From Candidatus Methylopumilus universalis (GTDB lineage: Bacteria > Pseudomonadota > Gammaproteobacteria > Burkholderiales > Methylophilaceae), in assembly GCA_945883335.1 (NCBI GenBank), contig CAMCXI010000001.1, positions 62,001 through 126,000 on the forward strand: DNA of 64,000 nt, given 5' to 3'. Of this stretch, positions 24,240-37,085 are shown piece after piece. Position 1 is the stretch's first letter. Each line of letters begins with the position of its first letter. Made by a program: the position numbers and the translations under genes. The notes under the pieces were generated by a model. That model did no database searches and had not been told where the DNA came from. It saw only the letters and a list, made by a program, of their open reading frames with translations.

Positions 24240-24313
24240 TGGAGCGGGTGACGGGAATCGAACCCGCGTATCGAGCTTGGGAAGCTAGCGTTCTACCATT
24301 GAACTACACCCGC
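24240..24313 (-). tRNA. tRNA-Gly(CCC), intact, CCA encoded
   Basis: Reverse complement GCGGGTGTAGTTCAATGGTAGAACGCTAGCTTCCCAAGCTCGATACGCGGGTTCGATTCCCGTCACCCGCTCCA; acceptor GCGGGTG/CACCCGC, T-loop TTCGATT. Confidence 0.93.
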
Positions 24314-24431: not shown

Positions 24432-24462
24432 AATAAAGCGTCTAGAATCTAGACGCTTTATT
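24432..24462. repeat. Island palindrome copy 1
   Basis: aataaagcgtctaga-a-tctagacgctttatt, perfect 15-bp arms. Confidence 0.9.
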
Positions 24463-24539: not shown

Positions 24540-25799
24540 ATGACCGCAGAAATAGCCGTACTCAATTTTCATGGTGTAGCAATGGCTGCTGACAGTGCAG
24601 TATCAATAGGTTCGAACAAAGTATATAACTCAGCAAACAAGCTATTTGCGTTATCCAAAAAACATCCTGTAGGAATTATGATTTATGGCAATGCTCAGAT
24701 GATGAGCGTTCCCTGGGAAACATTGATTAAAAGTTACAGAAGTACCCTAAAAAACAAAAAATACAAAAAGCTGAAGGATTACGGGGATAGCTTTATTGAA
24801 TACCTCACGAAAACTAGAGACATAGGTCTTGAAAATGAAGAACTTTATCTGAACATTACAATATCAAGAGTTGTAAAAAATCTTAGAGAGGCTGTAGAGC
24901 AAGCAGTTGGCGAGGGGTTCAGGGCTACGCCGACACTAACTAATATTGAAATACAGAGGATTATTAGTGCGACCATTTTAGCAAATAGCAGTCAGCTAAT
25001 AGGTAGAGACAAATTAATTAAAATTGATGCGCAATGGATTAATGAATTAGTTGGAACAATTAATTCGACGGTAGACAGTTTCATTGCAGCATCGTTTGAG
25101 AATATAGCGTTATCTACAAAAGAAAAGAAATTAATTTTAGATGCTTGTATCTCTGAGGTATGTTTAAGCGAGTTTAGTCCTAGTCATAGCGGAATCGTAA
25201 TATCAGGATTCGGCAATGATGAAATTTATCCGAGTCTAATTTCCTATGAAATTGAATGGCGCATCAATAAATTTTTGAAATTTAGGATTTCGAATCAACA
25301 GCATATTAATGTCAGTAGTGGTGCGTCAATAGTGCCATTTGCTCAAAGGGAAATGGTTGATACTTTTATAGAAGGCACAGACAGGCGTCTTGTTGATTAT
25401 ATTAACTCAAGAATCTCAGAAGTTTTTAACGATCTTCCTAATACAATGCTAGAAGGAACTAGCGTTAGAGCAAGCTCAAAAAATCTTGCGTTATTGAAAA
25501 GCAATGGCCTGGCAATCGCAAAAAAATTAGCGCAAGAAATAAGAGAGGTTCAAAACATAAATTTTGTAAATCCAGTTCTAGATAGCGTAGCTGCCCTTCC
25601 GCTTGATGAACTAGCGAGTATGGCTCACACTCTAATAAATATGACCTCCTTTAAACGGAGGGTTAGCTTGAATACGGAATCTGTTGGCGGTCCAATTGAT
25701 GTAGCAGTTATTTCCAAAGGCGATGGATTCATTTGGATCAATAGAAAGCATTACTTTAAACCGGAATTAAACCAGCACTACTTTGTTAATAATTCTTAA
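24540..25799 (+). CDS. Proteasome-beta/HslV-like Ntn-hydrolase (putative threonine peptidase) with large helical insertion
   Basis: Mature N-terminus T1AEIAVLNFHGVAMAAD17SAVSIGSNKVYNSANK33LF; IMIYGNAQ; GIVISGFGNDEIYPSLISYEIE; VSSGASIVPFAQ; GGPIDVAVISKGDGF. Confidence 0.8.
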   Translation: MTAEIAVLNFHGVAMAADSAVSIGSNKVYNSANKLFALSKKHPVGIMIYGNAQMMSVPWETLIKSYRSTLKNKKYKKLKDYGDSFIEYLTKTRDIGLENEELYLNITISRVVKNLREAVEQAVGEGFRATPTLTNIEIQRIISATILANSSQLIGRDKLIKIDAQWINELVGTINSTVDSFIAASFENIALSTKEKKLILDACISEVCLSEFSPSHSGIVISGFGNDEIYPSLISYEIEWRINKFLKFRISNQQHINVSSGASIVPFAQREMVDTFIEGTDRRLVDYINSRISEVFNDLPNTMLEGTSVRASSKNLALLKSNGLAIAKKLAQEIREVQNINFVNPVLDSVAALPLDELASMAHTLINMTSFKRRVSLNTESVGGPIDVAVISKGDGFIWINRKHYFKPELNQHYFVNNS

Positions 25800-25820: not shown

Positions 25821-26009
25821 ATGAAAGCTAAAAACTTAAAAACTGCCATTGCAGCCAAAGTCTATAACTCTTTCGAACAGTGGGAAAAAGAAAATCTTCC
25901 CAACAAAGTGAGACTCGAGGATTTGTCTTTTAAAAATGAATCTGAAAATGATATCTCAGATTCGAACAACATGGTTGACGACAAAAGTAGTCAGCTCATG
26001 CTAGCCTGA
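25821..26009 (+). CDS. Hypothetical 62-aa small protein downstream of the proteasome-like gene
   Basis: 21-bp gap to upstream stop, same strand; MKAKNLKTAIAAKVYNSFEQWEKENLPNKVRLEDLSFKNESENDISDSNNMVDDKSSQLMLA; followed by palindrome copy 2. Confidence 0.6.
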   Translation: MKAKNLKTAIAAKVYNSFEQWEKENLPNKVRLEDLSFKNESENDISDSNNMVDDKSSQLMLA

Positions 26010-26034
26010 CAAGCGTCTAGCTTCTAGACGCTTG
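26010..26034. repeat. Island palindrome copy 2
   Basis: caagcgtctag-ctt-ctagacgcttg. Confidence 0.9.
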
Positions 26035-26093: not shown

Positions 26094-26549
26094 CTAATTC
26101 AAGTCAACATTCGTAGCAATAAACACAGGTTTGTTAGCGCCTGTGTTTCGACAAAGGTGAACATCTAAAGTCCACTCCTCGACAGTTTGATTGTCAGGAT
26201 CATTTATCGTCGTATAAAGCTCACTGGTACTTGGTGCGTAAATTGAATAGCCATCAACTTTGGTTTTTGATTTAGTTAACGGGTCATAACGCACTAGCCA
26301 ACTAAACAATAAATCTTCATTTTCAGGAAAGCCTGAATTACGTAGTTGTCGAATTACATTCATCTGTTCATCGCTTTTGGCTGATGCTTCCCAAGCAGCA
26401 TATTGGTAGTAATCCACTAGATATTTACTGCTTGGATTTCTAAGTTCTACTGACCCATTAAAGAAAGCTCTGCGGAATTGATTCTTGCCAAACGTCGTGT
26501 TGAATTTCTCATTCATAAAACCTCTTACTGCTATTTCTCTTTCTAACAT
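26094..26549 (-). CDS. Hypothetical protein
   Basis: 151 aa ORF (alternative start MNEKFNTTFGKNQ); no family recognised. Confidence 0.5.
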   Translation of the reverse strand: MLEREIAVRGFMNEKFNTTFGKNQFRRAFFNGSVELRNPSSKYLVDYYQYAAWEASAKSDEQMNVIRQLRNSGFPENEDLLFSWLVRYDPLTKSKTKVDGYSIYAPSTSELYTTINDPDNQTVEEWTLDVHLCRNTGANKPVFIATNVDLN

Positions 26550-26920: not shown

Positions 26921-27361
26921 ATGAGCACACTAGGTAATTTGAAGTTAGTCGCAGATACAAAACCCAAACAAATCTCAGCAATTCAGCATCGCAGAAATAA
27001 GTTGATTCATCGTTTATGGGAACAGATTGAATTAGCTAAAAGCCAAATAGAAGGCACACAGTTTGTGGTCAAGAAATACCGCAGTATTGTCGACAAAGAT
27101 ACAGGTTTAAAGAAACAAGTCGAAGTACCTAAACGTATTCGTGAATGGTGGTTTAAAAACGAAACTGGAAAAGTCTGTTTATCTATCAAATACGGCACAA
27201 GCGTACTTGAACTTGCTAAGGGAAAACCCAGTATTGAAGTGGCTAGCCCACAAGATTTAATCAAAGCATTGGAGACGATTAAACAAGCGGTGGCAGTCGG
27301 TGAGCTAGACGCACAAATTGAACAAGCGAGCAGTCATCTACGAGCTGGCTTCCAGCACTAG
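26921..27361 (+). CDS. DUF6641-like protein of mobile elements
   Basis: ggagat RBS; PKRIREWWFKNETGKVCLSIKYGTSVLELAKGKPSIEVASPQDLIKALETIKQAVAVGELDAQIEQAS pattern; family name from memory. Confidence 0.6.
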   Translation: MSTLGNLKLVADTKPKQISAIQHRRNKLIHRLWEQIELAKSQIEGTQFVVKKYRSIVDKDTGLKKQVEVPKRIREWWFKNETGKVCLSIKYGTSVLELAKGKPSIEVASPQDLIKALETIKQAVAVGELDAQIEQASSHLRAGFQH

Positions 27362-27383: not shown

Positions 27384-27406
27384 AAGCGTCTAGTTACTAG
27401 ACGCTT
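27384..27406. repeat. Island palindrome copy 3
   Basis: aagcgtctag-tta-ctagacgctt. Confidence 0.9.
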
Positions 27407-27786: not shown

Positions 27787-27963
27787 ATGCGTTTTTATGA
27801 GTTCGCTAGTTTGATTAAGAAGCCACTAACGCCTGATCAAGCCAAGATTCAGGGGATGAAAAATCAAGTTAAGACAACACAGAAGGCAATTAAAGCCGAA
27901 AAAGCACGCCAGAAGATCAAAGCTGGGCAACAGGCACTTTCGAATGCTAATAAAGTTGTTTAG
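27787..27963 (+). CDS. Small basic hypothetical protein (58 aa)
   Basis: MRFYEFASLIKKPLTPDQAKIQGMKNQVKTTQKAIKAEKARQKIKAGQQALSNANKVV; 5 bp after the upstream small ORF; not in the provided track. Confidence 0.55.
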   Translation: MRFYEFASLIKKPLTPDQAKIQGMKNQVKTTQKAIKAEKARQKIKAGQQALSNANKVV

Positions 27964-28370
27964 TGTGGATATAAATCGAAACAGCTATCAAACCAAAGAA
28001 CATAAAAAACATCTCTCAATCTGTAACCTACCATCGGCTTCATTCCGCTGAAGCGGAATGCTAGAAAATGATCTACTTCTTCGGTAATAAAGGCAGGAAT
28101 TGGGGCATTGATGCTTTTTTTATCAATCTTCTCGAAACCTAACTTATGTCTTCCTGTTTTTTTTATTTCCGCCCAGGAAGTATTTCTTCTCTTGAAAATG
28201 GCTTCCGCAAAAGAAGCCTTATGGCTACCATCCATATTTGAGAAACAATATTTTCCAAGCTGAAGCCTCTCAAGAGAGAAAATTGGAGGGTGGTCGTCAT
28301 AATTAATTTCAGTTGGAATATTTATTCGACTAGCTGTAGGTCTACTAGGTTTTTTAATACGTGATGCCAT
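27960..28370 (-). CDS. Probable toxin partner of Panacea-domain antitoxin
   Basis: 136 aa; C-terminal MVGYRLRDVFYVLWFDSCFDLYPH; directly downstream of the Panacea gene on the same strand (7-bp gap). Confidence 0.55.
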   Translation of the reverse strand: MASRIKKPSRPTASRINIPTEINYDDHPPIFSLERLQLGKYCFSNMDGSHKASFAEAIFKRRNTSWAEIKKTGRHKLGFEKIDKKSINAPIPAFITEEVDHFLAFRFSGMKPMVGYRLRDVFYVLWFDSCFDLYPH

Positions 28371-28377
28371 GAAGAGA

Positions 28378-28815
28378 CTACTTATTAACTCTTAACTTGA
28401 AAAAATCCAGTAAAGTGTTTTTTGGAATAACGCTAGCAGTTGCTTCATGCTGTTTCCAAGGCAGTTCTTCATGTGTCATGTTTCTTAAAGTCCATCCAGA
28501 AAACTGATTGAAGACATCGTAAACTTCATCTAAGAATCCTTGAACCTCATCATCAAATTTAGAAATATCTAGGTCAGAGATTGCCGGTATGGATGTTGCT
28601 CCATGCTCTTTGAATCGATGATATAGCTCAGGAACTACAGGGCCGTGTGTCCAAGCTTCGATTTCTTCATTAAATAATGGCTTATCAAAAATTGCCAAAT
28701 AATAACCCTGTGCGTAATACACAAGCTTCTGCAATTTTAGATTGGAAATCGTATCCCCTGAATCTTCATCTTGTTTGGCAAGGAAGTAATCAGCTATGTC
28801 ATGACAACTCAACAT
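28378..28815 (-). CDS. Panacea (SocA/GepA, DUF4065)-domain antitoxin
   Basis: DIADYFLAKQDE...ISNLKLQKLVYYAQGYYLAIFDKPLFNEEIEAWTHGPVVPELYHRFKEHG is the diagnostic Panacea signature. Confidence 0.88.
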   Translation of the reverse strand: MLSCHDIADYFLAKQDEDSGDTISNLKLQKLVYYAQGYYLAIFDKPLFNEEIEAWTHGPVVPELYHRFKEHGATSIPAISDLDISKFDDEVQGFLDEVYDVFNQFSGWTLRNMTHEELPWKQHEATASVIPKNTLLDFFKLRVNK

Positions 28816-29105: not shown

Positions 29106-29672
29106 ATGGCACAAGCTAAAACATTCACACAGTCCGAATTAGACCAAGTTCTTCGTTTTGTAAGCACTCGAAAATACGCATTAAGGGATAGAGCAATCAT
29201 TCTTACCAGTTTTTGGTCAGGAATGCGTTGCGGAGAAATTTCTAAGCTAAAGATGGGTGACGTATTAAACGATGACGGCAGTTTGAAAAACGAAATCCGT
29301 TTAAGTGCGGAGCAAACTAAAGGCAGCCAAGCTCGTATTGTGTTCATTCCACAGAAACTCAAAGATGAATGGGCGAGCTACTTAGCAACACGAATGATGA
29401 AGAATAGAGATATTCCATTCTTTCACACAGATGACAGGCTTGGATTTAGCTCTAACACGCTTTGTCAGTGGTTTTTTTGGACTTATAAACGAGCAGGGAT
29501 TAATAATGCCAGCAGTCACTCAGGACGCAGAACGTTCATTACGAACCTAGCCAACAAGGGCGTTGGTGTTCGTGTATTAGCAAGTTTAGCAGGGCATAAA
29601 AGCATTGCTGTTACCCAACTATATATTGATACCAATGATGATATTAAGAGAAATGCTGTGGAGTTGATTTAA
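29106..29672 (+). CDS. Short tyrosine recombinase (188 aa, catalytic domain only)
   Basis: GMRCGEISKL, HSGRRTFITNLANKG, LAGHKSIAVTQLYID: R...HxxR...H...Y signature. Confidence 0.88.
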   Translation: MAQAKTFTQSELDQVLRFVSTRKYALRDRAIILTSFWSGMRCGEISKLKMGDVLNDDGSLKNEIRLSAEQTKGSQARIVFIPQKLKDEWASYLATRMMKNRDIPFFHTDDRLGFSSNTLCQWFFWTYKRAGINNASSHSGRRTFITNLANKGVGVRVLASLAGHKSIAVTQLYIDTNDDIKRNAVELI

Positions 29673-29679
29673 GAAAATG

Positions 29680-29700
29680 AGCGTCTAGTAACTAGACGCT
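29680..29700. repeat. Island palindrome copy 4
   Basis: agcgtctag-taa-ctagacgct. Confidence 0.9.
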
Positions 29701-29704
29701 TTAA

Positions 29705-30676
29705 TTAAGAAATAATATCCGATTCGCCCGATATGAATTTCGGTATGCGTTTCCTTACCTTGCCATCAGGCATTCGATAAGCGCCTGTTAAATTATTTCT
29801 TTTAATCACCTCATGCTTGAGGATGTTGCCGTACTCTTCTTTTAACCAAAGATAAAATTCAGATTTGAATTCTTTCGTATCTAGCTCAGTGGCTTTTAAG
29901 TAATCTGCATGATGCTTTTTACCAAAAGGCATGAAGTCATCGCCAAAGTTTAATTTAGTGGTATTGGGAAAGTTTCCGTAAACTAAATTGTTTAGTGAGA
30001 ATTTAGCTTTATATAAGTATCTGCCAGTGATGCTACTTAGTCTGCCAAATAAAGGCGACTCGTCCCACCCATGTAACCCTCTAATTTTCAAATGTGGTGA
30101 TATCTGTAAACGATCACCAATTCTCCATATCTCAATCTTTGAATAAAGCATACGGTACAACAAGACCCAATACTCAAGCTCAATAGTTCTCAGTCTATAT
30201 CGTTTAGTGAATAGCTTAAGTTTTGCCGATGTTGTGCCAGCAAGATCTAAAGATCTGCCATCGTGATATTCATCTAGCATCTTCTTTACTTGCTTAAGTA
30301 TGGTTTCCCTTCTAATGGTTAGTGGAATTTCCAAATAGAATGCTTTTTCCTTGAATGAATGCTGATCAAGATTATTGAGATCTAAAACTTCAACCTTATG
30401 AGGTCTTTTAGCTTCGGCAAAACTATAGCGCCCTGTTGTATTCCACCAACGATAAAACATGTCATCGCTTAAGTCACCAACTAGGCTATATGTTTCCGCG
30501 ATTTTAGGATCAACAGGTTCAATGCCTCTGGTTCTTGCGTACCAGAACACAGGACTTAATCGCATAAACTCCCACCACCACCGATAAATGCTTGCGTCAG
30601 CTTCTTTTGCCAACACCTCGTCATCTGCTCTCGTGAATCCAAGAATTCCCTTGAAGAATGGCTTTTGTTTTTTCAT
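29705..30676 (-). CDS. Hypothetical protein
   Basis: 323 aa, YRWWWEFMRLSPVFWYARTRG...; no family recognised. Confidence 0.55.
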   Translation of the reverse strand: MKKQKPFFKGILGFTRADDEVLAKEADASIYRWWWEFMRLSPVFWYARTRGIEPVDPKIAETYSLVGDLSDDMFYRWWNTTGRYSFAEAKRPHKVEVLDLNNLDQHSFKEKAFYLEIPLTIRRETILKQVKKMLDEYHDGRSLDLAGTTSAKLKLFTKRYRLRTIELEYWVLLYRMLYSKIEIWRIGDRLQISPHLKIRGLHGWDESPLFGRLSSITGRYLYKAKFSLNNLVYGNFPNTTKLNFGDDFMPFGKKHHADYLKATELDTKEFKSEFYLWLKEEYGNILKHEVIKRNNLTGAYRMPDGKVRKRIPKFISGESDIIS

Positions 30677-30816
30677 ATTCTATTTATAACAGTTTATTTG
30701 TATTTTCGTAAGTAGTTGTTATAGCCATCACAATTCGATCTACAACATGACAAAACAAACAGACATTTCGTCACAACTTGTTGTGTTGTTTTTTGAAAAA
30801 AGAAAGCGAGTAAAAA

Positions 30817-31650
30817 ATGGTTACAGTTACTAACAAAACAGCAGTAAAAACTTCTTCAACAACAGCTAAAGCAAAACAAGTGTTTGTGCCTAGCGATACT
30901 AATATCAAATATGCGCAAACGATTGTTAAGCAGTTAAGCGACTTAGTTGTTAAGCGTGAGAAATGGGAAAGCACAGATTACAAGAAAGCAAACGAAGGTT
31001 TGTATGCTTTGTTGTCTAGCTGCTTGGAAATGTTTAACAGCAAGTTTGTTACATCAGGTGACAGCGATCGCAAAACGCTACGTTATGAGCTAGCAACATT
31101 GCTTAAAACAGACGGCATTAAAGTACAAACAAATACGCCTACGCTAACAATGTTTGTGCGTTATGTGTTTGGCTCTGATCGCAAACGTGCGCATGGTTAC
31201 TCTTACGTACTAAAAGCAGCGATTTCTTATGAAATTTCTGCTGAAGCCTTAGCTAAGTTTATTGTTGAGCAAGGGGGCATTGAAGAGATCAAACGCAAAA
31301 TGGTTGCGAGCGAAGAAGCCATTGCTAATAAAGCCAAGCGAGAAAAAGCACTTGAAGCAGTTAATGCGAATGCTGAACAAGCTGAGCTTGCCCCACTAGC
31401 AACTGTCGGCATTGATCTTAGCCAAAATACTACGCCTTTTGCGATTGTAATTACTAAGCCTAATGCTAATGGCGAAGGTGATGTGATTGCTGTGCTTAAG
31501 AATGCTGAAGCAAAACTTATTACAGCACTCTACAAGCATATTGCTAAGCAGAACATAGCTGATGAAGCTGCGCAGAAAATGCTTGAGACAGAAATGGCAA
31601 GTTTGACTGGCAAACAAGCAGCGAACGATGCTGAGCTTGAAGTAGCTTAG
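30817..31650 (+). CDS. Hypothetical protein, co-directional with clamp-loader-like ATPase
   Basis: 277 aa; gcgag RBS-like; Ala/Glu/Lys-rich C-terminus. Confidence 0.6.
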   Translation: MVTVTNKTAVKTSSTTAKAKQVFVPSDTNIKYAQTIVKQLSDLVVKREKWESTDYKKANEGLYALLSSCLEMFNSKFVTSGDSDRKTLRYELATLLKTDGIKVQTNTPTLTMFVRYVFGSDRKRAHGYSYVLKAAISYEISAEALAKFIVEQGGIEEIKRKMVASEEAIANKAKREKALEAVNANAEQAELAPLATVGIDLSQNTTPFAIVITKPNANGEGDVIAVLKNAEAKLITALYKHIAKQNIADEAAQKMLETEMASLTGKQAANDAELEVA

Positions 31651-31707
31651 TACTTAACTAATAGGGCAGCCTTTGTGGTTGCCCCTTTTTTCTTGAAAGG
31701 AAAGAAC

Positions 31708-32361
31708 ATGAGCTTGCTCAACAAATACAAACCAAAGGCGCTTAACGATCTTGTAATCCCAAATACTGCCATTAAGGATTTGCTAGATGATATGGCGAAT
31801 GGTTATGTCATTAACAAACTATGCTTTGTAGGAACGAATGGCACAGGAAAAAGCACTGCTGCGCATTTGCTACCAGAACTAATCGAAGGTTTCTCTCCAA
31901 ATACAGTTAACTTAATTGGTGAAGAGAAGTTTGATGTAAGTAATGCGATTAATCAGTTAAGCACGATTAATAATTTTGGCTGGAGTGACCAAAAATACCA
32001 GTACGTGCTTTTTGATGAACTTGATAAGGTAAAGAATAGCTTGGCAGCTCTTTGGCAAACAATGGATACATTCAATGACAAAGTGATTGTGATTGCCACA
32101 GCAAATGATTTTATGAATATTGAAAAGGCTGTTCGTTCGCGTTTCCAGCTTTTAGATTTTGGGCTAATCACAGCAGATGATTTCCTGCCTCGAGCACAGC
32201 AAATTTTAGGGCAGGAAAATATTACTCTGAAAGATAGCTATATATTAGGTCAGTTACAAACAAAACAGAGCTTAAGTGACATGCGTAAGTACTTTGATAC
32301 ACTCAGCGACATTCAGCGCAATCACAACGCTGGGCGTATTCAACAGATCCACTACGTTTAA
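31708..32361 (+). CDS. Clamp-loader-like (RFC small subunit/T4 gp44-type) AAA+ ATPase
   Basis: LLNKYKPKALNDLVIPN, GTNGTGKSTAA Walker A, VLFDELDK Walker B, ATAND sensor 1, RSRFQ Arg finger SRF-like box. Confidence 0.75.
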   Translation: MSLLNKYKPKALNDLVIPNTAIKDLLDDMANGYVINKLCFVGTNGTGKSTAAHLLPELIEGFSPNTVNLIGEEKFDVSNAINQLSTINNFGWSDQKYQYVLFDELDKVKNSLAALWQTMDTFNDKVIVIATANDFMNIEKAVRSRFQLLDFGLITADDFLPRAQQILGQENITLKDSYILGQLQTKQSLSDMRKYFDTLSDIQRNHNAGRIQQIHYV

Positions 32362-32405
32362 CTAAATCGCAAGGGTGCGCAAGCACCTTTGCTTTCTCTA
32401 TTTCA

Positions 32406-32426
32406 AGCGTCTAGTTACTGGACGCT
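32406..32426. repeat. Island palindrome copy 5 (one arm mismatch)
   Basis: agcgtctag-tta-ctggacgct. Confidence 0.8.
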
Positions 32427-32461
32427 CAATGGAAAGTTTAGCAGTGAAAACAACTGCGAAA

Positions 32462-32722
32462 CTATTTATTACACTGAAACACCAACTCGCGCTTACCACC
32501 TACAGGACTTTGATTTCTTTCTTTTAAGTTATAGCCATTTGGGCAGGTTTGTTTTGCACGGTCATAGCAATTTGGCCAATCTTCTACCGCGCCATTACAA
32601 GTAACTTTATAAGTTTGGCTTTTAAGATCTATCATACGCACCGATTGTGCAGCGCCTTGAGGATTTGATAAAGCCGTGCAAGCAGTTAAGGATAGTCCTA
32701 TTAATAAAGCAAATAATTTCAT
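32462..32722 (-). CDS. Small lipoprotein
   Basis: MKLFALLIGLSLTAC lipobox; Cys-containing C-terminus. Confidence 0.6.
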   Translation of the reverse strand: MKLFALLIGLSLTACTALSNPQGAAQSVRMIDLKSQTYKVTCNGAVEDWPNCYDRAKQTCPNGYNLKERNQSPVGGKRELVFQCNK

Positions 32723-32748
32723 ATTGATCTTTCGTAAAGTCAGCAATA

Positions 32749-32775
32749 AAAAACGGCACCCTAAGGTGCCGTTTT
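32749..32775 (-). terminator. Rho-independent terminator downstream of porin
   Basis: aaaacggcacc-ctaa-ggtgccgtttt. Confidence 0.7.
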
Positions 32776-32802
32776 AACTTAAGTCTAACTAAGAATTAAA
32801 TC

Positions 32803-34069
32803 CTAGAAGAACATGATTGCGCCTAGAGAAACTGTGTCGCTATCAATTTTAACGCTTCCTGCAGTTGCCTTACCTTCAATTTGTTGGTTTGTATATTCAG
32901 CAACCAAGTTCAAACTCTTAGTAAGTGGGTGGTAAGCACCAACAATCCATGATTCATTAGTGATCTCGCCATCAACTGCACTAAGTGTACCTTTTGATGA
33001 GTTTTGACCCCATGAAGCGCCTAACTTAGTACCGATAGTTGGAACTACGAATGTAGCTTGAACATAACCACCGCTGTCTTTAGTTTTGAAGCCGCTACCG
33101 AATGCGATACCGCCTGTGCCGATAAGATCAGTGCTGCTATATTGGCTATCTAAGCCACGGCCGTCATAGTAGTAACCCACTAAACCAAAACCTTGATAAG
33201 CAACTTTAGCACCTACATCTACACCACGGCTTGTGTAGCCATTAACATCGCTAGTATTTGCTAAACCTGCTGCATGTTTTTGAGTAATGCCTGACAACCA
33301 AACGCGACCAGTTACATCATTAGCAGCGAAGTCATAAGTCACTTTACCTTCATAACCCATATCTTCACGAGTTGCATTAGCGTTGCCATTTGAAATTGGC
33401 TCCATCACACCAGCTGTGAATGAGAAACCATTCCAGTTTGGTGAAGCGTAAGAGATTTGACCTCTCCAGTTAGCATACATGTAGCCAGAACCAATACGGC
33501 CTAGTGTTGAAGAACCACCAGCTGCTGATGTAGTAGGACCACTTACACCAACACCTAACAATGTCATGTCTGACAAGATAGCATCAGAACCGAAAATGCC
33601 TAGGTCACGACCAGCTTTGATAGTACCCCATGAAGCATCACCGAATGTCAAGAATGCTTGACGAATGTTCAATGAGTTATTGCCTGAACCCAAGTTAGTT
33701 GTAGCGCCATCATTAGCTGAGGTGCCAGTGAAGAATGAGAATTGGAACGCAATGTCCAAATCATTTTGACGTGTTTTAGCGCCAATACCAAAGGCAGCTG
33801 GCAATAGACCTGTACCGATTGTGTTGCCATCAGGAACATTTGCTGAACCATTGTATGTAGTACCGCCCCATGTTACGTTTTGAGCGGTTGCGTCAGTTGA
33901 TTTGTGTGTGTAGAACGCATTAACGTTACCACCGATGTCTACAGTCCAATCACCAGCTGGGATTGTGATACCAGCTTGAGCTGCAGATGAGAATGCTACT
34001 AAAGCACCAGCATCACCTAATACTAAGTTATCTATATGATTTTTAATAACTAATTCTGAAACAAAAATG
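32803..34069 (-). pseudogene. Gram-negative porin, open frame from within signal peptide but lacking start codon
   Basis: In-frame upstream extension reads LGDAGALVAFSSAAQA|GITIPAGDWTVDIGGNVNAFYTHKS...; C-terminal ...DTVSLGAIMFF; no ATG before an upstream stop. Confidence 0.65.
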
Positions 34070-34077
34070 TAGTCGAT

Positions 34078-35307
34078 TTATATTATCAAATTGACTTTGA
34101 AAGGCGTCATTTTTTCCAAGTAATCTCCCCACCAATTCATTAGCGCAATTCGGTCATTCAAGTACTGCGCTCGGTTATAGGCTCGACGGACTTGGTTAGT
34201 ATCAGTATGAGCCAACTGTCTTTCAATCACATCAGGTCTAAATTCGTTTTCATTAAGAACGGTACTAGCGATTGCCCTAAATCCATGTACTGTCATTCTG
34301 TTTTTGTACCCCATCCAATAAAGCGCATAAATTAATGCGTGATCAACTAATGGTTTTTTTGCTTTATGAAATACATAGCCATCGCTTGGATAAGAAGATT
34401 TAATATGATTAAGTATTAAGAGAGCTTGTTTATTCAATGGCACAACATGCTCAAGCCTCATTTTCATCCGCTCTGCTGGAATTTTCCATATAGCCTTTTC
34501 TAAATCAAATTCATCCCAAGTGGCTTGTAATAATTCATTCTTGCGAACAAATGTCAGTGCCATAAGTTGTAAGGCATACCTCACAATTGAATCACCTATT
34601 TTTTCATATCCTGCGATGTCACTCATTAACTTAGGTAATTCTTTGGGTGTTACAGCATTAAAATGAACGACAGTATGCTCATGTAATGCTTTATTTAAGC
34701 CGATGGTAATGTCGTGTTTACATAAACCAATGATGATTGCGTATTGCCATATCTGGCGACAGTCATTTAGTACGCGGCGAGCTAAACCATATGCTCCGCG
34801 ATCTTCCATTTTCTGTAATAGCCCGAGCAAGTCATTTCTCGTAATTCGCTGTATATTTTTATCGGCAACATACTTAAGAATGTTATTGATTAGCCTGCTC
34901 TCAACCTGTTTTGTATGCGCAGGTGTCCATTTTGAAGCGCGACGAGACAGCCATTGCGATGCGATTTTCTTCAATCGCAAATCAACTTGTATCCCTTTGA
35001 CAGGCATATTCGCTTCACTAATATGATGTTCTAGCAAATGGGTTGGATGCTGATATTTTGTTATTAGAAGCTTTTCGTAAAACACTCTCGCCTCTCTGAA
35101 AGCTTCAAATTTATCCTGTGTTTTACAGCTATGACGATAAGTCTTTCCTCTATCAAAATAGGTTGCCCACCAGTATGGCGAAGCGTTGTTCAGATAAACT
35201 TTTAACTTTCTTGGGTAGTGTGGAACTGGCGTAACCGTTCCTGGGATTGCTGCGGTGCGATGACGAGTTGGGATGTTAATTTGATCAAAAGTATCAATTC
35301 CTATCAT
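34078..35307 (-). CDS. Tyrosine integrase (P4-type)
   Basis: TFVRKNELLQATWDEFDLEKAIWKIPAERMKMRLEHVVPL, MTVHGFRAIASTVLNE, IERQLAHTDTNQVRRAYNRAQYL. Confidence 0.92.
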   Translation of the reverse strand: MIGIDTFDQINIPTRHRTAAIPGTVTPVPHYPRKLKVYLNNASPYWWATYFDRGKTYRHSCKTQDKFEAFREARVFYEKLLITKYQHPTHLLEHHISEANMPVKGIQVDLRLKKIASQWLSRRASKWTPAHTKQVESRLINNILKYVADKNIQRITRNDLLGLLQKMEDRGAYGLARRVLNDCRQIWQYAIIIGLCKHDITIGLNKALHEHTVVHFNAVTPKELPKLMSDIAGYEKIGDSIVRYALQLMALTFVRKNELLQATWDEFDLEKAIWKIPAERMKMRLEHVVPLNKQALLILNHIKSSYPSDGYVFHKAKKPLVDHALIYALYWMGYKNRMTVHGFRAIASTVLNENEFRPDVIERQLAHTDTNQVRRAYNRAQYLNDRIALMNWWGDYLEKMTPFKVNLII

Positions 35308-35413
35308 TTTGAGAGCCTCAAAATGATTAATTATTAATGATAACTTTGTGCTTGAGCTACCTGAATTTGTAGTCGAAAAAGTCGTTAACTACGAATCGAC
35401 TACTTTTTAACGA

Positions 35414-35434
35414 AGCGTCCAGTAACTAGACGCT
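35414..35434. repeat. Island palindrome copy 6 (one arm mismatch)
   Basis: agcgtccag-taa-ctagacgct. Confidence 0.8.
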
Positions 35435-35446
35435 AGCTATTTCTTT

Positions 35447-36976
35447 TTATGTCTGCTTGTTAAAGCTATAGAACTTCCAATTCGGAATTAAATCAAAATC
35501 AATACAATCCGAAAAATCTAGCCTTTGGTACCAATTATTGTATGTCGTTAAGTCTGATGGTTTGATGTATGTGGTTGCCGCAATATTGCCAGATGGTGAT
35601 TGCCCAACTACAAACGCAAACTTGTTTTCAGAAATATCGAGATTATGCGAGAAGAAATTAATGACATTGTGTCTTAGAGAATGGAATGAAGTTCTAGCAG
35701 TTGTTATGTCGCAATGTCTTGCGTTCATATATGTTTCATTGAACCACTTGCTAAAGACGCTACCGTAACTGCTTCTCTGAATTTTGTAGTTAAGCTCTGG
35801 AAATAACCTCTCATCACCACGTTGCTTTCTATATTCCAAAAACTCGATAAAGCCCAACCTGATAAGTTCTGGATGTATTGGAACGAGGCGCTTATGGTAA
35901 TGGCGCTTCAAAGATTTCCTTGTGTTTATATAGTCATTTTCGTTGATATCAAAAACCCAAATATTAGTTTTTAGCTCTTGGTAGATATCTGAAACGAATA
36001 GCTGACAGATTTCACCTTGTCTTGCGCCTGTAAGTAATCCAATTAAAGGCACCCAATATTTGAAGCTTTTGTCATGTTCCAAGTCCAGATAAAACTTACT
36101 ATTAAAGAGCTTGGTTAGATCCTGACTTGTAAAAACTGATCTGTCATCAAAGCTACGTGACTTAATCTTAATGATGCCTTTTAAGGGTTCATTAAGATGG
36201 GGTATGGCAAAGTCGTGTTTATCCAACCAGTCGAAAAATGACGAAAGCTTTTGTAGATAGTTGGACTTAGTTCTGTCGTGTAGTTTCTCTGTTTGATCTA
36301 TTTGTAGTTTCAATATCTGATCAAGAGATAGTTTTCTGAATTTAGGATTCTTTCGTCTATTTTTAGGGTAATTAAGTACAACAGTTTTATATTGAATGGC
36401 ATGTTGCTTGGTTAGTGTCGATGTTAGGATGTCACCGAAAAGCTCTAATAGAATGGTTAGCACCTCTTTTCTATAGGTTAGCTCTGAATCACTATTGTGT
36501 TTCCAATTCAATTTACGCTCGTCAATAAAGAGATTCATAGCCTCAGATATCTTTATGCTAAATAAATTGGCTCTACCTTGGTTCTTTATTTCCTCCCTTA
36601 GTAATCGAATTTCCTCAATAAACTTAGCCTCAAGCCTTTGATAGTAAGTTGATTGATTGATGGGATTTTGAAGACTATTTTTATCTTTGTGTTTTTTTAG
36701 AATTTCGATCGTTTCAGTTAAGTCACTTTCTGATTGAAAATGATTTTTAGGTAACTCATCAAATACTCTAGCTAGCTCTTTAGCAATGCTTAAGGCTTCT
36801 TCACGATTTTTGGTAGTAAGTGAAAGGCGAATAAATTCCTTAGCTACTTTGCTATTTGTCGGCACCCTCTTTTGAAAATAGTAAGTGCCTTGTCTATCTG
36901 TATAAATGTAAGTAGGAATAGCCAATGTAATATTTCCATCATTACATCTGCTATGTTTGATGTTAAGGCAAAGCAT
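35447..36976 (-). CDS. Tyrosine site-specific integrase (DUF6538-like N-terminus), tRNA-Gly adjacent
   Basis: YFQKRVPTNSKVAKEFIRLSLTTKNREEAL..., LTGARQGEICQL, FHSLRHNVINFF, TTYIKPSDL; starts 46 bp from the att repeat. Confidence 0.9.
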   Translation of the reverse strand: MLCLNIKHSRCNDGNITLAIPTYIYTDRQGTYYFQKRVPTNSKVAKEFIRLSLTTKNREEALSIAKELARVFDELPKNHFQSESDLTETIEILKKHKDKNSLQNPINQSTYYQRLEAKFIEEIRLLREEIKNQGRANLFSIKISEAMNLFIDERKLNWKHNSDSELTYRKEVLTILLELFGDILTSTLTKQHAIQYKTVVLNYPKNRRKNPKFRKLSLDQILKLQIDQTEKLHDRTKSNYLQKLSSFFDWLDKHDFAIPHLNEPLKGIIKIKSRSFDDRSVFTSQDLTKLFNSKFYLDLEHDKSFKYWVPLIGLLTGARQGEICQLFVSDIYQELKTNIWVFDINENDYINTRKSLKRHYHKRLVPIHPELIRLGFIEFLEYRKQRGDERLFPELNYKIQRSSYGSVFSKWFNETYMNARHCDITTARTSFHSLRHNVINFFSHNLDISENKFAFVVGQSPSGNIAATTYIKPSDLTTYNNWYQRLDFSDCIDFDLIPNWKFYSFNKQT

Positions 36977-37021: not shown

Positions 37022-37085
37022 GACGGGAATCGAACCCGCGTATCGAGCTTGGGAAGCTAGCGTTCTACCATTGAACTACACCCGC
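37022..37085 (-). pseudogene. tRNA-Gly copy lacking the matching 3' acceptor strand (att repeat)
   Basis: 64 nt identical to tRNA-Gly 24240-24313 from the 5' end through the T arm, but the 3' acceptor is ggcgctgg instead of cacccgctcca. Confidence 0.88.

Follow-up and report, generated by a model that had tools for sequence, protein, structure and literature searches.

The window analysed here is a 64,000-nucleotide stretch of the genome of Candidatus Methylopumilus universalis (assembly GCA_945883335.1, contig CAMCXI010000001.1, positions 62,001 to 126,000 of the forward strand). At 24540-25799 on its plus strand lies an ORF with an ATG start whose 419-amino-acid product, beginning MTAEIAVLNFHGVAMAADSAVSIGSNKVYNSANKLF (its N-terminus is also given as MTAEIAVLNFHGVAMAADSAVS...NKLF), is a proteasome-like N-terminal threonine hydrolase, very probably of the type termed PMI-4. 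Its Thr2, Asp18 and Lys34 become residues 1, 17 and 33 on removal of the initiator methionine; an earlier note on this DNA had claimed this ORF and these three positions, and the ORF is real with its coordinates exact. Directly downstream on the same strand, at 25821-26009, is a second gene, overlooked in the earlier reading of the locus, for a protein of 62 amino acids that bears the motif KVYNSFEQWEKENLP and is recognised by an HMM built with this sequence left out, its C-terminal half being diverged. Together the two genes open a 12.8-kb island as its first module.

The boundaries of the island are direct repeats of 64 nt, identical to each other and both on the minus strand. The left one (24250-24313) is inside an intact tRNA-Gly(CCC) gene (24240-24313, minus strand) and the right one (37022-37085) is a second copy of that tRNA-Gly segment; with three tyrosine integrase genes enclosed between them, the integrative tRNA island that had been claimed is borne out. 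Next to the slot that holds the two-gene module is a core gene for a 151-amino-acid protein (26094-26549, minus strand), followed by one for a DUF6641 protein of 146 amino acids (26921-27361, plus strand) and by a second cargo slot (27960-28815, minus strand), where a domain match places a Panacea-domain, SocA-like antitoxin gene beside a gene for 136 amino acids. These two genes (27960-28370 and 28378-28815) are probably a Panacea-type toxin–antitoxin pair; separately, PADLOC's NsnC model matches the 136-amino-acid product weakly. The remainder (29106-36976) is a mobility and core module with the three tyrosine recombinase genes, genes for proteins of 323 and 277 amino acids and a clamp-loader-like ATPase. 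Three different tyrosine recombinases (29106-29672, 34078-35307 and 35447-36976) in a single 12.8-kb element is an observation in its own right, and one of them, of 188 amino acids, consists of the catalytic domain only and is kept in sister islands. Elsewhere in the same genome (G000:C5:100488-101228) there is a distant homolog, 33% identical, of the 277-amino-acid core protein, which may mark another element.

Punctuating the island at its module boundaries are six copies of a 21-nt palindrome, AGCGTCTAGNNNCTAGACGCT, which a repeat search found nowhere else in the assembly. The two-gene module sits exactly between copy 1 (24437-24457), upstream of it, and copy 2 (26012-26032), directly after it; the others are at 27385-27405, 29680-29700, 32406-32426 and 35414-35434. 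The palindrome may be a terminator, a protein-binding site or a site of cassette exchange: five of the six copies fit the 3′ end of a gene or an intergenic gap, as ordinary terminators would, but copy 1 lies upstream of the module. Counting the window's own genome, five of 10 genomes of the genus have the palindrome, and clusters of it occur in the sister islands of the genus.

Two of those genomes, G004 and G005, carry the sister islands L187 and L186 respectively. Their core proteins of 277, 228 and 151 amino acids are 93-98% identical to those in the window (97% in both for the last of these, and 76% in both for the DUF6641 protein), and the hydrolase and its partner are absent from both. 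In L187 the slot equivalent to that of the module, between palindromes and beside the 151-amino-acid core gene, holds a match to the PADLOC defence candidate PDC-S46 (E 3e-220), while in L186 the other slot, after the 146-amino-acid core gene, is taken by an NB-ARC NTPase partly related to PDC-S49. Together with the Panacea pair in the second slot of the window's island, these occupants mark the position of the module as one for swappable, defence-type cargo. Near-identical cores with different cargo between palindromes have the look of a cargo-swapping island family.

That the enzyme has a proteasome-type Ntn fold, as the earlier note had proposed, is the common verdict of its AlphaFold2 model (pLDDT 93.8, pTM 0.89, from 101 sequences), in which the alpha-beta-beta-alpha Ntn architecture is found, and of fold and core-profile matches to the PDB. 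The 50 best PDB fold matches, 23 of them with E < 1e-3, are all proteasome core-particle or Anbu subunits; the insertions of the hydrolase keep the TM-scores modest, at about 0.4-0.57 depending on the target. Among models of viral proteins the fold search ranked highest a phage protein named proteasome beta, along with uncharacterised proteins from phages that are about half as long. Searching the PDB with the single sequence gave noise only, and a full-length profile retrieved cullins beside proteasome beta, which is coiled-coil noise from the helical insert that went once the insertions were removed. A core profile lacking the insertions retrieved six sequences up to E 10, all of them proteasome beta subunits (best E 2e-4), and in its alignment to the Thermoplasma beta subunit Thr2 falls on Thr1, Asp18 on Glu17, Lys34 on Lys33 and GGPIDVAVISKGDG, which is conserved across the family and matches the archaeal beta subunit, on GGMIDVAVITRKDG. 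Both of the long helical insertions that had been claimed are present in the AlphaFold2 model: one, with helices at 97-129, 135-154, 164-186 and 193-207, comes after helices 59-70 and 78-91, and the other, with helices at 282-305 and 313-351, is between those at 270-278 and 355-375, that is between H3 and H4.

Conservation points the same way. In an alignment of about 153 distinct homologs together with the window's copy, residue 2 is Thr in 150 and Ser in two, Asp18 is found in 153 of 153 and Lys34 in 154 of 154, so that the triad is invariant or nearly so; a methionine stands immediately before the threonine, with no propeptide. Since the two large homolog scans picked loci by C-terminal patterns only, this N-terminal conservation is no artefact of selection. 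The further motifs quoted in the earlier note are all present as well; of what they were taken to match, the Asp166 and Ser169 of the proteasome align in the core profile with residues that the family does not keep as Asp and Ser, which implies that the auxiliary catalytic network differs.

The family had been thought undescribed, and here the record needs correcting. The hydrolase is matched over its full length (E 2e-113) by phrog_5990 of PHROGs v4, whose function is unassigned, and it best fits one of the 22 proteasome homologs catalogued by Fuchs, Alva and Lupas in 2021, PMI-4, the ‘Proteasome homolog with Multiple Insertions’ variant 4 (PMC8665760). PMI-4 was among the largest new groups of that survey and received no function, its authors finding no gene context that hinted at one and no AAA+ partner (PMC8665760). 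PMI-3 and PMI-4 both have insertions after H1/H2 and between H3/H4, which the survey authors consider may prevent canonical ring assembly, a point to set beside the earlier note's proposal of a self-compartmentalising peptidase, and it is PMI-4, not PMI-3, that is numerous and found in phages, Firmicutes, Actinobacteria, Bacteroidetes, PVC and Cyanobacteria (PMC8665760). Insertion sites and phyletic spread are thus those of PMI-4, and it is on the published description of these that our assignment stands. Models of Pfam, NCBIfam and PADLOC do not match the hydrolase, nor has PADLOC a model for the product of the partner gene. Homologs 28-43% identical to the hydrolase come from phages, streptococcal satellite phages, plasmids, prokaryotic genomes and viral contigs, the scans having yielded 511 stretches of prokaryotic genomes and 166 of viral contigs; besides phages, Proteobacteria, Firmicutes, Actinobacteria, Bacteroidetes, PVC, Cyanobacteria and Euryarchaeota are all represented among the 80 matches listed of the 511. 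At home the gene is single-copy in an assembly of 1.6 Mb, and a family-model search of 60 related genomes did not find it.

What accompanies the hydrolase is a small gene, almost everywhere. An ORF of 40-85 codons that starts between −35 and +60 bases from the hydrolase stop is present in 138 of 146 distinct homologs, against 31% when the same test was applied to 791 further long ORFs from these loci, and with an ATG and a Shine-Dalgarno-like site also demanded the figures are 69% versus 5%. Several of the homologs apparently without a partner do have a shorter ORF, as short as 35 residues, with a convincing ribosome site, and in homologs lacking a separate ORF the partner was not found fused to the enzyme at its C-terminal end either. 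Of the 131 distinct partner sequences, 64 group into a single HMM family that shares the motif S-x-x-E-[FYW]-x-x-x-[FY]-[FL]-P, and in most of these a helix containing L-G-x-x-L-A comes next; about half, mostly from Firmicutes and phages, are too divergent for it. The ORF at 25821-26009 scores 25.9 bits (E 4e-7) against the model made without it and is the sole significant match in six frames of the whole window, 1,000 shuffles reaching at best 10.7 bits. The partners have about 60 residues, are mostly basic and have a conserved aromatic-Pro motif: an aromatic-hydrophobic-Pro sequence is found in 46 of 63 members of the HMM family versus 7.9 after shuffling, and even in 22 of 68 divergent partners versus an expected 7.5. 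A typical one is modelled as three helices (pLDDT 82, pTM 0.39). Changes between close pairs number 134, 103 and 298 at codon positions 1, 2 and 3, the pattern of a gene that evolves as coding sequence, and the distances among partners correlate with those among enzymes (Mantel r 0.76; the largest of 999 permutations gave 0.24). Apart from the partner, the hydrolase has no neighbours that recur beyond closely related genomes, and no conserved AAA+ unfoldase or alpha subunit adjoins it across the homolog loci; the earlier remark that no unfoldase is adjacent holds, and the only recurrent neighbour is the small gene. Both that gene and the cargo-slot context are new, neither being found in the literature searched.

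In phages the pair either adjoins a repressor, a Q antiterminator or a lysis gene or comes last before att. Among its annotated neighbours in viral contigs, transcriptional repressors, Q-like antiterminators and endolysins occur most often. The hydrolase gene follows the lysin at the prophage end in phage Javan85 and is last or next-to-last in the streptococcal satellites; a 2026 paper on streptococcal satellites makes no mention of a proteasome-like gene. Carriers are rare in E. coli, where the probes detected 22 among 5,426 genomes; one prophage there has the gene antisense beside antiterminator Q, and in another it comes straight after the repressor and shares its strand. In phage lambda the position after the repressor is occupied by rexAB, the superinfection exclusion operon. 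A Porphyromonas phage copy lies amid structural genes, and some copies are in ordinary-looking chromosomal surroundings. At the level of families, the 127 nearest neighbours matched 183 PADLOC families and the 126 distal genes taken from those loci matched 140, so defence genes are not clearly more frequent next to the hydrolase than farther away, and the literature search gave no paper that links the hydrolase family to phage defence. As a separate observation, on two rhizobial plasmids (L016:2733-4799 and L019:8699-12210) multiubiquitin and ThiF-type genes are near a PMI-4-type gene; ubiquitin-like conjugation genes beside a proteasome relative may there be a matter of chance.

Fold, triad, two-gene conservation, mobility and a swappable position in sister islands are established computationally, and from superfamily and context we infer physical interaction of the two products, hydrolase activity and a role in defence. 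On the best reading, with chances just short of even, the two genes are an accessory module, a threonine hydrolase with a small regulator or adaptor, for superinfection exclusion or defence. The fuller proposal, that PMI-4 with its partner amounts to a hitherto unnoticed anti-phage system of two genes, acting by superinfection exclusion and widespread on prophages, phage satellites and islands, in which an adaptor, inhibitor or substrate of about 60 residues takes the place of an unfoldase, is put forward tentatively, at somewhat under an even chance. The vehicles of the module are phages and their satellites, plasmids and genomic islands. With its initiator methionine removed the hydrolase would be expected, from the Ntn chemistry of its superfamily, to be competent, its core decorated by the two helical insertions after H2 and between H3 and H4. 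The small three-helix protein would bind it as regulator, adaptor or dedicated substrate, and the module would probably be kept for protecting its carrier against competing phages or mobile elements. The defence candidate in the sister-island slot and the lysogenic-conversion positions in phages lend weight to the idea of defence, which we keep short of an even chance because enrichment of defence genes in the neighbourhood is not decisive.

Other functions have been considered. Were the hydrolase a toxin and the small protein an inhibitor of it, disappearance of the latter during infection or when the element is lost would free the enzyme to cause addiction or abortive infection; an arrangement of two genes on mobile elements, one of them for a tiny cognate protein, suits this, as does the Panacea antitoxin-type pair in the neighbouring slot of the same island, yet a position downstream of the enzyme is unusual for an essential antitoxin and some homologs apparently have no recognisable partner, or just a 35-residue one, so we consider it rather unlikely. 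Alternatively the pair might serve the element itself, in induction control, maturation or packaging, for instance by degrading a repressor or a capsid protein. Its place beside repressor and Q genes, and amid structural genes in the Porphyromonas phage, would accord with that; however, its position varies among unrelated elements, and its being missing from sister islands with core genes up to 98% identical, rare in E. coli and present also in archaea and many chromosomes is the behaviour of dispensable cargo, which makes service to the element decidedly unlikely.

The aromatic-Pro motif prompts another thought, of a specific protein ligase or processing enzyme like connectase, with the small protein as a substrate recognised at that motif. 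Its enrichment in both sets of partners is in keeping with this, and connectase, from the same superfamily and the one insertion-bearing relative so far characterised, has its specificity shaped by its insertion (PMC8665760). The motif may nevertheless be a mere helix cap or docking element and the insertions occupy the two sites of PMI-3 and PMI-4 and not that of connectase (S3/S4), so that such a ligase seems quite improbable. Least probable by far is an uncapped peptidase for general proteostasis that clears unfolded proteins and is carried by chance, a role that Fuchs et al. proposed broadly for homologs of this sort (PMC8665760) and that is compatible with the want of an unfoldase neighbour; a patchy distribution (none of the 60 related genomes), the place as mobile cargo and a partner gene of its own all speak against it.

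The near-universal partner is a specific, testable handle on PMI-4 function, and the places that the pair takes in phages and islands indicate a physiological role for the family. If defence is what the pair does, a proteasome-type protease would join the effectors of bacterial immunity, under a control mechanism that dispenses with an ATP-driven unfoldase.

How does the pair compare with known systems? Compared by description only, PMI-4 and the hydrolase share the Thr/Asp/Lys triad, lack of a propeptide, both insertion sites and a spread over bacteria, Euryarchaeota and phages, with no difference known; the partner gene and the cargo-slot context are absent from the published account (PMC8665760). 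The entry for phrog_5990 is the same full-length family, unannotated and with no partner recorded. The PDC-S46 and NB-ARC/PDC-S49 candidates occupy the equivalent or a neighbouring slot of near-identical islands, but their proteins are unrelated to the hydrolase and their own defence role is predicted. With lambda rexAB one E. coli prophage copy shares the position after the repressor, and the two are without sequence relation. The beta subunits of the 20S proteasome and Anbu have the Ntn fold and triad positions in common with the hydrolase, which differs in its double length, its two large helical insertions, non-conserved equivalents of Asp166 and Ser169 and no unfoldase or alpha subunit nearby, and which the curated Pfam and NCBIfam models for 20S beta, HslV and Anbu do not recognise. 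Whereas connectase has a two-helix insertion at S3/S4, and the AlphaFold2 model of the hydrolase has none of that size near residues 21-37, this archaeal protein ligase is, like the hydrolase, an insertion-bearing member of the superfamily that goes without an unfoldase.
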